Source: an uncultured Myroides sp. | GTDB lineage: Bacteria > Bacteroidota > Bacteroidia > Flavobacteriales > Flavobacteriaceae | DNA: 64,000 nucleotides | Assembly (NCBI GenBank): GCA_913777665.1 | Contig: CAJYTF010000034.1 | Location: 124,001 to 188,000 of the forward strand | Reading direction: 5' to 3' | Part shown: positions 13,740 through 41,542 of the stretch, in pieces | Numbering within the stretch: position 1 is the stretch's first letter | How the letters are laid out: each line of letters begins with the position of its first letter | Translations under genes and position numbers: made by a program | The notes under the pieces: generated by a model | Database searches by the model: none | The model's input: only the letters and a program-made list of their open reading frames with translations | What the model was told of the DNA's origin: nothing

Positions 13740-13821
13740 GCGTTCCCTTCGGTCGGGCTTTTCGCTGTAATCTTTTTGCTCGTTCCTCTCAAAAAAGTAT
13801 TTCCGCTGCAATCCCTAACGC
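13740..13821. other. Structured intergenic element: terminal GCGTT/AACGC with two internal hairpins
   Basis: GCGTTCCCTTCGGTCGGGCTTTTCGCTG...CTTTTTG..CAAAAAAG...CGCTGCAATCCCTAACGC. Confidence 0.5.
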
Positions 13822-13833
13822 AAATATCCCGTA

Positions 13834-36808: not shown

Positions 36809-38302
36809 TTAAGGCTTATGAAAACCTTGTTTTAATATTTTTGCAACTACATTTTTATAGAAAATATCTTCGAACTGATTTCCATACATTTTAGCAAATG
36901 CCTGTTCTTTTGTTAGGAAATCATTCTCGCGTTCTTTAATAGCATCGTGTAGCGTATTTCTCTTTTTGAACATTGTTATGGCTTGTTCTGCTGTTTCAAA
37001 CTTAGTCTTGCTTAGGTTTTCTTTAATCCAACTTTCAAAATTATCATTTGCAAACGAAGCATTTTCTTCTCGCAATAAATCAGCAAATTTTCTTTTTACC
37101 GAACTATATTCCATGTATTCGTTAGATCCATAAAAAGCTGCAGCAGCCATTTCAAACGCTAGATATTCTTTATCATCTAAAATATTCTTAACCTTTTTTG
37201 GTACCACAACTTTTTTCTCTGCGATAAAATCAACAGGTAACATATCGGCAGTTTTTAAATCGGCAAAAAATCCACTAAAATATACATCATTCGGGTTTAC
37301 TAAATGTCCACCTTTTTGAATTAGCACACATTTTTGTTGAAAATACAATTGAGATTGCTCTTTAGTTTCTTTGTTAAAAACAACAAACGGCACTTCTATT
37401 TCGGCAGTATCTTTTTGCAATTTTGAATTTAAATTACCGCCTTTTATAACCACACCTGACAAATCGGGTCTTTTACGGGTTGGTTTTTTAATGATACAAA
37501 GTTTATAACCATCGTTTTCTGGTTCTACCTTAAAATATTCTTCTACAGGAACGCCCAAACCATTAACTGCGAGTATATAATCACAATTTTCAAGATTAGC
37601 TGTAGTTAAATCGTTAAAAAAAGCAACGCTTGAATTGTTATAGGTTTCATTTCTATTAGCGACTATCTTCTTGTTAGATTTTTCGTTTTCACTAAATAAA
37701 GAATATCCAAAATAATTGCTGTTCGTGTAATTTTTAGGATCTAACGTTTGATAATTGAACTGAACCTGAAATGATTCTAAGTGAAATTTTATGGTATATC
37801 CCAGATTTTCATTATTGATAACAATCGGATTATCAGAATGGGCAGATAACTGATTGGTTTTTGTATCGAAATAAAAATATAAATCGTTTTCGTTTAAGAT
37901 TTTTGTATGCTTGGCGTTTTTGGTGTTTCCTATGAAAAAGTGTTTAAATGCCTTGAGCATTTGTTTACGAGTAAAGACATTTTTATCGATCACTAACTCT
38001 TGTAAAACAGTTTCTTCAGGCTTTAGTCGGATTTTTAAATCAGTAGTTGAACCCGGATCTGACACAAGAAAATATTCATATCCAAAAGAACTTACAACTA
38101 ACTGATTTTTATTATTTGCCGGAATATTAATTTGGAAATATCCTTTTGCATCTGTTTCAGTTGCTATAGTAGTGTTATCTAAAAAAACCGATGCTGCTTC
38201 AACAGGTTTGCCGGTATCTGCACTTACAACAACTCCTTTTACAATTTGTGCGTTTGCAAGCATGCTTAAAAAACAACATATCAATACGTAAAAATGCCTC
38301 AT
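36809..38302 (-). CDS. Carboxypeptidase-regulatory-like domain protein
   Basis: KGVVVSADTGKPVEAASVFLDNTTIATETDAKGYFQI N-terminal domain. Confidence 0.75.
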   Translation of the reverse strand: MRHFYVLICCFLSMLANAQIVKGVVVSADTGKPVEAASVFLDNTTIATETDAKGYFQINIPANNKNQLVVSSFGYEYFLVSDPGSTTDLKIRLKPEETVLQELVIDKNVFTRKQMLKAFKHFFIGNTKNAKHTKILNENDLYFYFDTKTNQLSAHSDNPIVINNENLGYTIKFHLESFQVQFNYQTLDPKNYTNSNYFGYSLFSENEKSNKKIVANRNETYNNSSVAFFNDLTTANLENCDYILAVNGLGVPVEEYFKVEPENDGYKLCIIKKPTRKRPDLSGVVIKGGNLNSKLQKDTAEIEVPFVVFNKETKEQSQLYFQQKCVLIQKGGHLVNPNDVYFSGFFADLKTADMLPVDFIAEKKVVVPKKVKNILDDKEYLAFEMAAAAFYGSNEYMEYSSVKRKFADLLREENASFANDNFESWIKENLSKTKFETAEQAITMFKKRNTLHDAIKERENDFLTKEQAFAKMYGNQFEDIFYKNVVAKILKQGFHKP

Positions 38303-38389
38303 AATTAAAAACTTAACTTCTTTAAAAACAAAAAACTACCTTAGAATATCTAAGATAGCTTTTTTAACAAAGATTAACTCAAATTGATC

Positions 38390-39646
38390 TTATTTTTTTA
38401 CAAATTTTAAAGTAGCCGACCCTTTTGCTGTTTCAACTTTTAAAACGTATACACCTGTTTTTAAGTTTGATACATTAATTGTTTGTGTATTTGCTCGCAG
38501 TACTTTTTGACCTGCAATGTTGTATGCGGTTACATTTGTAATGCTTTCGGCAGTTTGAATGTTTAATATATCTGATGTTGGGTTTGGATATACCGAAACA
38601 GAAACCATTTCTGGATTTTTCACAGAAAGTGATGCTTTAGACTTGTAGAAATGGTTTGGAATTTTACCAACTGTAAAAGTATTCAACAAACTACCTTGTA
38701 AAGAATATACATACACTTTACCATCTAAAAAATATCCGTTAGCATCGGCAACATAAATAGTATTATTAATTACATTCATACCGTAAATACCCATGTAAAC
38801 ATCAGTAACAGGTGTAGCTACTAATGGGTTGGTAGTTAATGTGTTTGTTGAAACAGTGTATTTGTAAATATCGGCACCAGCAGTAATATAGAAATCAGTT
38901 CCATCTGTATCCATATGAAAAGCTTTAATACCTGAAGGAAATGTAAAAACATTTGTAGCAGTATCTGTACTTAAATTAATTTTATGCAAGCTTGCAATTG
39001 CTGTTGGAGATCCCCACGATGTTACGCCGCATAAAACATATAAATCGTTTCCTAAAGTAACCAACTCAGAAGGAGTATCCTCTACCTGAATTTGAGTTGA
39101 TTGTTGCGTAGCAATATTATAAACCGTAACAAAATCTGCGTTTTGATGTGCGATATACAATTTCCCGTTTATTTCTTTAATTTTTTCTGTACCATTAGGA
39201 ACTGGAATGGTAGTTTCTAACGTATTTGTATTTAAATCAATGACTGCTAAATAATCATTAACATCAGTCGTACCTCCCCAACAAGTTACGTATGCTTTAT
39301 TGTTATATACAGCGGAATATCTAGGGTTTACCATCCCAGAAATTGTTGCAATATGTTCAAATGTTTTGTTGTTTACAATTTTAACCTCGTTAGATATATT
39401 AAGAACAACTACAGCAAGATCATTATACATAGTAAGACTTTGAGCTGTATCGCCCAAATCCATCCCCTGATTTGCCAAACCAAAAACATTGTTTGTCACT
39501 GTATTGTTATTTATAAAAGAAATAGATGCGTTGTCAGACCCCGCACCTCCTTCATTCAGTACAATTACTCCGTCTAAATATTCTGTTTGAGAAAAACCTA
39601 GAAAGCTGAAAAGGACAAATAGTATTAATAAAATATTATTTTTCAT
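38390..39646 (-). CDS. YncE-like beta-propeller surface protein with T9SS type A sorting domain (BtuG-like candidate)
   Basis: Propeller-like NNKTFEHIATISGMVNPRYSAVYNNKAYVTCWGG..., DLYVLCG...; C-terminal VSVYPNPTSDILNIQ...GVYVLKVETAKGSATLKFVKK. Confidence 0.8.
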   Translation of the reverse strand: MKNNILLILFVLFSFLGFSQTEYLDGVIVLNEGGAGSDNASISFINNNTVTNNVFGLANQGMDLGDTAQSLTMYNDLAVVVLNISNEVKIVNNKTFEHIATISGMVNPRYSAVYNNKAYVTCWGGTTDVNDYLAVIDLNTNTLETTIPVPNGTEKIKEINGKLYIAHQNADFVTVYNIATQQSTQIQVEDTPSELVTLGNDLYVLCGVTSWGSPTAIASLHKINLSTDTATNVFTFPSGIKAFHMDTDGTDFYITAGADIYKYTVSTNTLTTNPLVATPVTDVYMGIYGMNVINNTIYVADANGYFLDGKVYVYSLQGSLLNTFTVGKIPNHFYKSKASLSVKNPEMVSVSVYPNPTSDILNIQTAESITNVTAYNIAGQKVLRANTQTINVSNLKTGVYVLKVETAKGSATLKFVKK

Positions 39647-39676
39647 GTGTTAGTTGTATTTAGTAAGATATTATGA

Positions 39677-40792
39677 TTATTTTTTTACGAATTTTAAAGT
39701 AGCCGAACCTTTTGCTGTCTCAACTTTTAAAACATAAACTCCTGCTTTTAACCCAGAAACATTAAGTGTTTGTGTGTTTGCCTGTAGTACTTTTTGACCT
39801 GCAATGTTGTAAGCGGTTACATTTGTAATAGTTTCTGCAGTTTGAATGTTTAATATATCTGATGTGGGATTTGGATACACGTTTGCTGCGATAGCATTAT
39901 ATTTATTCGTAGATAATGAAGCCGTGATATCTTGCGGAGTAAATGGTCTTCTTTCACCAATGCTTAAACCTAACCAATCGTTATTATCTAGGTTAATTAA
40001 CGATAAATCGTTTTCTGTTTTCCAGCTAGAAAGATCGGTTCCACTGTATGCTTTCCATAAATTAGTTCCTGCTGTTTCGGTACGATTTCCGATAGTTACA
40101 GACGATAAAACATTTGCATTCATTACAAAATCAAATCCGCCGTTTAATTCTGTATTAATTAAATCTAAAGCATCTTCTGCTGTGATAGATCCGTTGTATT
40201 GAATTCCAAAAACGTAAGAATCTGCAACATTATTTGTATCAGTACCAAAATCAACAACCACTAAACTTTGGTTTGATCCTGTTCCCAACCATGTAATAAT
40301 GTCTGATTTTTTATACCATTGAGAGCTGTATGCAGGAATTGGTTCAACTGGAGCTTGTGATGTAGGGTTGCTAAAACCATAAGAGACACCATACCAATGA
40401 CCGTCTGTTAAGGCTGCAGAAACACCTCCGTTCATTGCGAATGTTTGTGCCGAAGTACCTGACCAAGTGCTCCACCAATCACTTCCGCCTATACTTGTGT
40501 GATCATTGAATGTGACGTGATTTAAGAAGGGACCACCTGTTGTTGGATTAATAGTAAAATTAGGTTCAGCCGCAGCAATTGCAACTAACATACTAGCAAA
40601 TGTTTGTCCTGTTCCGGGAGTGTAATGGTATCCCCAAGCATACGAACGATCATCTGTTCCATCTTTAAAATCTACAACTAAATAAGCTGTTTCAGTTCCT
40701 GTTCCAACATGAAACTTAACGTCACTTGGTGAAAATTGAGCAAAAATTATTTGCGTAAAAAATAGTAAGAATAACAAAGTAATTCTTTTCAT
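39677..40792 (-). CDS. Secreted protein of two tandem homologous domains plus T9SS type A sorting domain
   Basis: Repeat unit LVVVDFxxGTDxxSYxxGxxY...; C-terminal NVYPNPTSDILNIQ...LKFVKK. Confidence 0.8.
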   Translation of the reverse strand: MKRITLLFLLFFTQIIFAQFSPSDVKFHVGTGTETAYLVVDFKDGTDDRSYAWGYHYTPGTGQTFASMLVAIAAAEPNFTINPTTGGPFLNHVTFNDHTSIGGSDWWSTWSGTSAQTFAMNGGVSAALTDGHWYGVSYGFSNPTSQAPVEPIPAYSSQWYKKSDIITWLGTGSNQSLVVVDFGTDTNNVADSYVFGIQYNGSITAEDALDLINTELNGGFDFVMNANVLSSVTIGNRTETAGTNLWKAYSGTDLSSWKTENDLSLINLDNNDWLGLSIGERRPFTPQDITASLSTNKYNAIAANVYPNPTSDILNIQTAETITNVTAYNIAGQKVLQANTQTLNVSGLKAGVYVLKVETAKGSATLKFVKK

Positions 40793-40903
40793 AATATAAA
40801 AAATTTAAAGTTTTGTTCCCGAAACTTTATAGGAATATTTATGAAAAGATTATCAAATGAAGACCTTTTACCACTTTTATTCCCGAAAGTTAAAAAATGA
40901 TTT

Positions 40904-41072
40904 AGGCAGGTCTCCTGGCTTGCATCTTATTGTAGGTCTTCCCAGAAAAAAAATCCAGTGACGTTTTTAATTTACAATAAGTTTGGTAGCATACAGTTGC
41001 GGGTACAGCTCAAGATTCGATTATATCTTACTTGATTCCCTTTTAAAGAACATGACGAATGTTCTACCAAAA
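40904..41072 (-). promoter_or_regulatory. Cobalamin (B12) riboswitch (approximate limits)
   Basis: Minus-strand reading: GGTAGAAC...TTTAAAAGGGAATCAAG...GAGCTGTACCCGCAACTG...CGTCACTGG...GGGAAGACC...AGCCAGGAGACCTGCCT (B12 box). Confidence 0.92.
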
Positions 41073-41092
41073 TCGGCACGAAGATACAAAAT

Positions 41093-41542
41093 TTATTCTA
41101 AAGCTAAACGAATAGGTACACGGTAGCGCACACGTTCTGGCTTACCGTTAATTAAAACAGGATTTACACGTAATTTTTTAACTACGCGAACAGCTTCTGC
41201 ATCGCAAACTTTACACAAACCCTTTTCTATCAGTACATCACTAACAGATCCGTCTTTCTCTACTATAAACTGAATATAAATAGTTCCGGTGATTTCTAGT
41301 TCGAGTGCTTCGTCAGGAAAATTGTAGTTCTCGCCTAAAAACTGGGTTACCGATTTGCCTGATAGTGTTTTAATGCTTGTCGCATCTGCGTAAAATGACG
41401 GATCATCTGTATGAACTAATGTGTCGTTTACTGAATTTCCTGCAGGAGCTTCCACAACGCCTTTTTCTAAGGGAGTAGGAATATTTTGGGAAAATCCTGC
41501 CCAGGAAAATCCCATTATAAAAAGTGTAACAATTTTTTTCAT
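41093..41542 (-). CDS. TonB C-terminal-domain protein (signal peptide, no obvious N-terminal TM anchor)
   Basis: GTIYIQFIVEKDGSVSDVLIEKGLCKVCDAEAVRVVKKLRVNPVLINGKPERVRYRVPIRL. Confidence 0.85.
   Translation of the reverse strand: MKKIVTLFIMGFSWAGFSQNIPTPLEKGVVEAPAGNSVNDTLVHTDDPSFYADATSIKTLSGKSVTQFLGENYNFPDEALELEITGTIYIQFIVEKDGSVSDVLIEKGLCKVCDAEAVRVVKKLRVNPVLINGKPERVRYRVPIRLALE

Follow-up and report, generated by a model that had tools for sequence, protein, structure and literature searches.

A candidate T9SS-displayed corrinoid capture module behind a cobalamin riboswitch in a relative of Paenimyroides

A two-gene unit on the minus strand of the 64,000-nucleotide stretch of DNA that we analysed (the window) probably encodes a corrinoid capture module, controlled by a B12 riboswitch, displayed by the T9SS and feeding a BtuB encoded on another contig, C26, of the same genome; B12 binding, regulation, surface location and hand-over are the predicted parts of this assignment. 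One of the two proteins is a propeller related to BtuG, and the other belongs to a family without annotation, here called X. Among named organisms, the locus has its closest relatives in the genus Paenimyroides.

Regulatory RNA, gene layout and export signals

The unit is preceded by a cobalamin riboswitch aptamer at 40888..41086 (-), which covers the RF00174 covariance model end to end (model positions 1-189). With 99.0 bits in cmscan (E 1.6e-23) it lies well over the gathering score of 31.5 bits. The minus-strand riboswitch claimed in the earlier note, which had proposed this very search, is therefore real, and the motifs quoted there are located at 40905-40919, 40994-41011 and 41035-41044 (-).

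The first hairpin past the aptamer, AACTTTCGGGAATAAAAGTGG (40871..40891 (-)), has a similar counterpart after most of the riboswitches examined and may serve the expression platform as its kissing-loop (L13-type) hairpin. A second hairpin, AAAGTTTCGGGAACAAAACTTT with the loop TTTCGGGAA, is predicted to fold directly before the start codon (40807..40828 (-)) and is a putative regulatory element. The motif TTTCGGGAA occurs only twice in the window, once in each hairpin. These two identical-loop hairpins of the aptamer-to-start-codon interval (40807-40891 (-)) are kept, slightly changed, in 10 related loci, three from other Paenimyroides and seven from Chryseobacterium.

The riboswitch is followed by the gene of family X (39677..40792 (-)), whose 371 aa comprise a signal peptide, two transcobalamin-beta-like domains and a T9SS type A tail, and by the gene of a BtuG-type (DUF5074) propeller of 418 aa with a T9SS type A tail (38390..39646 (-)). 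Both open reading frames exist as previously described, with a 30-bp spacer between them. An intrinsic terminator, AAAAAAGCTATCTTAGATATTCTAAGGTAGTTTTTT, consisting of a strong hairpin and a T tract, lies past the stop codon of the second gene at 38330..38365 (-); the fold of 38310-38385 has an MFE of -22 kcal/mol (z -6.0), and 0/200 shuffles were as good. Because of this strong terminator, the transcript most likely consists of the X and propeller genes alone.

Upstream, the gene for a 149-aa TonB C-terminal-domain protein (41093-41542 (-)) ends 7 bp before the riboswitch; it is kept in two other Paenimyroides loci and is missing from the Chryseobacterium loci. Beyond the terminator, a 497-aa CarboxypepD_reg-like protein (36809-38302 (-)) has a counterpart in the same place in the other Paenimyroides loci. 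Elsewhere in the window, a Flavo-1 small RNA (RF01705, 46.7 bits) is found at 13747-13826 (-).

The signal peptides that had been attributed to both proteins are recognised by eye (MKRITLLFLLFFTQIIFAQ and MKNNILLILFVLFSFLGFSQ), and neither contains a lipobox Cys. The two type A sorting domains also hold up, since the Por_Secre_tail and TIGR04183 models match both proteins well over cut-off. In X the domain occupies 39677..39880 (-), with 5.3e-14 for PF18962 and 53.8 bits for TIGR04183, and in the propeller 38390..38593 (-), with 3.3e-14 and 51.5 bits. The genome encodes the T9SS component GldN (228.7 vs 85.9 bits), so that X and the propeller each present the two marks of type A cargo, a TIGR04183/PF18962 tail and a T9SS component in the genome. 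Cargo of the T9SS may be anchored as well as released (PMC10202324).

A BtuG homologue and a predicted transcobalamin-like family

Alignment to BtuG chains delimits the BtuG-like beta-propeller region to residues 25-333 (38648..39574 (-)). It contains a DUF5074 match (PF16819; E 1.6e-9, 37.8 vs 27.2 bits) and finds crystallised Bacteroides BtuG in phmmer with a best E-value of 1.4e-21, the chains 8p97, 8baz and 8bmy all lying at about 1e-21. Among the columns conserved in lipoprotein BtuGs, 31/44 are kept, and in a tree the propeller clusters with T9SS-tailed Chryseobacterium propellers and the lipoprotein BtuG that the same genome encodes. Based on this match, the conserved columns and the tree, the propeller is, at the level of sequence, a BtuG homologue in which a T9SS tail replaces the lipid anchor. 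The lipobox Cys is absent from the protein and from the Cys column of the BtuG alignment, and the T9SS tail stands in its place. The earlier note, which saw in neither protein a resemblance to a B12 biosynthesis enzyme or known transporter, needs correcting here, since this protein does resemble a B12 uptake protein that is known, BtuG. The proposal of a T9SS-displayed, BtuG-like propeller stands as regards homology and tail, but the term "functional analogue" was too weak.

The window propeller resembles Bacteroides BtuG, a DUF5074 propeller that acts as the lid of BtuB, in its homology over the whole propeller (~1e-21), its B12 riboswitch and its predicted outer-surface location. In contrast to BtuG, which has a lipoprotein anchor, it carries a T9SS type A tail, and it lies apart from btuB, which is accompanied by a separate lipoprotein BtuG at C26. 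Since the X-propeller unit contains no btuB, we count the propeller as a BtuG homologue and not as a BtuG lid. In an alignment read by eye, Trp194 and Trp272 of the BtuG2 pocket look replaced, while Tyr335 looks kept; Trp272 also looks replaced in another BtuG.

Apart from its tail, X (39677..40792) contains no Pfam or NCBIfam domain. Its two halves align in blastp (E 1e-11, 27% identity over 127 columns), indicating a tandem duplication of a domain of ~130 residues, with domain 1 at residues 19-152 (40337..40738 (-)) and its tandem copy, domain 2, at residues 153-296 (39905..40336 (-)). Single-sequence and profile searches of X against the PDB yielded only sorting tails or chance matches, and structure prediction was therefore needed. 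An initial AlphaFold model, spanning both domains, reached a pLDDT of 73 and had transcobalamin structures as its best PDB matches, the same top list as domain 1. A second, template-free model (AF2) of domain 1, built from 39 sequences, reached a pLDDT of 87.8 and a pTM of 0.86, with 84-88 for the five models.

A Foldseek search of the domain 1 model against 350,542 PDB chains placed transcobalamin, haptocorrin and intrinsic factor, together with two chains of 3u7z, at ranks 1-19. The latter, a Ruminococcus gnavus protein, is the sole bacterial entry among these top 19 matches. The Foldseek probability is 0.87-1.00 over these ranks and 0.44 at rank 20; the E-values are modest (0.006-0.07, with TM 0.46-0.59 by query), so that it is the probability and the consistent ranking that carry the fold match. 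A beta-grasp fold like that of the transcobalamin C-terminal domain is seen in the predicted model only, where two short strands follow the helix of domain 1, the place at which a beta-hairpin insert would be expected. The alpha/alpha toroid partner of the animal carriers and of some bacteria is absent, as the signal peptide, the tail and the two beta domains account for the 371 aa of X.

The window X does not match Pfam DUF4430 (PF14478), a domain which we take to be the transcobalamin C-terminal domain. Its relative in locus L121, found at 4e-14 by a profile of window-type X sequences, has a DUF4430 match above cut-off (2.2e-12). In the phylum, Pfam DUF4430 is found in 1/297 genomes, in keeping with the escape of family X from Pfam. 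DUF4430 and transcobalamin are both named in PMC4350170.

X very likely represents a Bacteroidota surface family of the transcobalamin beta-domain kind that is predicted to bind corrinoids. It resembles DUF4430 and the beta domain of transcobalamin, intrinsic factor and haptocorrin in its predicted fold, in the DUF4430 match of the L121 relative and in its B12 context, and differs from them in lacking an alpha/alpha barrel, in having two tandem beta domains and in its export by the T9SS. Bacterial transcobalamin-like domains have been described, with a predicted role in B12 scavenging, and their SLBB clade was listed for low-GC Gram-positives, planctomycetes, euryarchaea and animals, Bacteroidetes not being among them (Burroughs et al. 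2007, PMC1796856). In our literature search, which covered a minority of the subscription papers, no transcobalamin-like family was described that is exported by the T9SS or comes from Bacteroidota.

The B12 loci of Bacteroides contain BtuB, BtuG, BtuH, BtuJ and BtuK (PMC10404256, PMC8941943, PMC12751083). Like BtuH (PDB 7biz, C-terminal part of 8blw), X would be an accessory protein that binds B12 at the surface and is encoded in this type of operon, but an identification with BtuH was rejected, as X matches neither 7biz nor 8blw and true BtuH genes adjoin X in several loci. BtuJ (DUF4465) is likewise a surface B12 binder, with C-terminal sorting tails already noted in many members (PMC12751083); this identity was also rejected, because X has no Pfam DUF4465 match, and a jelly roll (BtuJ) stands against a predicted beta-grasp (X). 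BtuK1 and BtuK2 of B. thetaiotaomicron (BT_1486/BT_1487), compared by description only, are accessory lipoproteins of a B12 locus, and BtuK1 binds B12 (PMC12751083). When BtuGH loci of another order were probed for the possibility that X is BtuK, BtuJ-like neighbours were present and X was not.

The X proteins of L108, L109, L110, L115 and L119 are longer, at about 560 aa, with some 330 extra residues before the main X domain; in L108, the one scanned, these have no Pfam match.

Genomic company of family X and apparent exchange of modules

The X loci were collected by X protein search alone. RF00174 is present in the neighbourhood of 42/45 of them, and one of the 3 exceptions ends at a contig edge. 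The chance of finding a riboswitch in an 18-kb stretch is ~1%, as estimated from the two full riboswitches in the 2.9-Mb genome of the window. The 45 loci include sister species and are not all independent, yet they are spread over many genera. The closest X matches come from two further Paenimyroides and seven Chryseobacterium loci, and RF00174 is present in all nine.

In the seven Chryseobacterium loci the order is riboswitch, propeller, X, with a second X in three. In a distantly related genome of the order, the riboswitch is followed by X, btuB and lipoprotein btuG, and in other genomes riboswitch, btuB, btuG and btuH are followed by a fusion of X, DUF5074 propeller and T9SS tail. Similar patterns recur in twenty X loci of another order and in six of one of its families. 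Most X loci also contain btuB, btuG or btuH. The neighbourhood search that the earlier note had proposed found X, or X-propeller fusions, with riboswitch and btuB in other genomes, and this recurrence, together with the predicted fold, supports the note's idea that the partner of the propeller is another binding protein, from an undescribed family. A plasmid search for X gave no match.

The two T9SS tails of the window (39677-39880 and 38390-38593) share 88% DNA identity. In P. ummariense (L038), X is kept and the propeller is missing, and the tail of X (L038:6913-7116) equals the tail of the window propeller at 20/24 of the sites that tell the two window tails apart. Judging from these alignments, such a pattern would be expected if the propeller had been lost when one tail recombined with the other, and the T9SS tails seem to be recombination points at which binding modules may be deleted or swapped.

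In P. baculatum (L047:6001-6960), a T9SS protein without Pfam domain, family Y, takes the place of X, while the riboswitch, signal peptide and tail that enclose it are unchanged. Roughly half of the loci L102-L121 contain family Y again, together with X, btuB and btuG; Y has a weak profile match to BtuH (44 columns, E 2.5e-5, probability 75%). The combination of riboswitch, signal and tail appears to behave like a socket for exchangeable modules.

Proposed mechanism and alternative readings

At low cellular cobalamin, the riboswitch would permit expression of X and the propeller, with B12 presumably acting as the repressor. Both proteins would cross the inner membrane by their signal peptides and the outer membrane by the T9SS, which would cut the tails and fix or release the proteins at the surface. 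There, the DUF5074 propeller may bind corrinoid in the manner of BtuG, and X may do so by one or both of its transcobalamin-beta-like beta-grasp domains, the two copies perhaps clamping one corrinoid between them. The captured B12 would be handed to BtuB and lipoprotein BtuG of C26, then to BtuF and BtuC, and finally serve MetH and NrdJ.

The clamp is proposed because an alpha/alpha barrel is absent. That X constitutes a new class of bacterial surface cobalamin binder, T9SS-exported and holding one corrinoid between two tandem transcobalamin-beta-type domains, is a tentative reading that we hold to be less likely than not. If it is true, the two copies replace the alpha barrel plus beta domain of the human carriers.

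X and the propeller might be regulated by B12 and yet bind another ligand, for instance a polysaccharide, a cobalt complex or some other tetrapyrrole. The replaced pocket residues of the propeller and the varied ligands that SLBB/beta-grasp domains are thought to bind (PMC1796856) fit such a reading, which we nevertheless regard as very improbable, as the two proteins accompany btuB, btuG and btuH in many genera and nearly all of the best fold matches of X are B12 carriers. It is also unlikely, if a little less so, that B12 is bound by the propeller only and that the part of X is structural or one of docking, in which it presents the propeller near BtuB. The frequent fusion of X directly N-terminal to a DUF5074 propeller with T9SS tail, seen in many genomes, is in line with this idea; however, L038, L039 and L111 carry X alone behind the riboswitch, with no propeller in the same unit, and X is predicted to adopt the fold of a domain that grips B12.

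Release of the pair as a diffusible or vesicle-borne scavenger is a variant of the capture module that is compatible with B12 binding, and we consider it a minor possibility. T9SS cargo can leave the cell surface as well as stay on it (PMC10202324), and the BtuJ proteins of B. thetaiotaomicron work on vesicles (PMC12751083), but the sequence fits anchored and released proteins alike.

Under the capture-module reading, a family of unannotated surface proteins, present in Flavobacteriales and in further orders of the class, gains a concrete and testable function, the main prediction being that purified X holds cobalamin. It would also tie B12 scavenging in Bacteroidota to a fold that animals use for B12 carriage. 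Furthermore, the data suggest that T9SS-exported equivalents exist for the lipoprotein B12 catchers of gut Bacteroides, and that the binding modules behind a single riboswitch can be swapped. A T9SS-exported, transcobalamin-like Bacteroidota family appears to be new, and would be less so if X is the BtuK family.

Contig C26 of the same genome encodes btuC and btuF, after which come, behind a riboswitch of 94 bits, btuB and the gene of a lipoprotein BtuG, and the genome has the B12 users MetH and NrdJ. We read the window unit as a satellite capture module that would hand its B12 over to this importer. Elsewhere in the genome, at C69:8005-8136 (near L052:8005-8136), a sub-threshold RF00174 match of 23.8 bits lies just upstream of nrdB, which encodes a class I reductase and is divergent from the B12-dependent nrdJ (TIGR02504, 565.7 bits). 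This match may be a riboswitch that has diverged and, when B12 is present, represses the reductase that does not depend on it.
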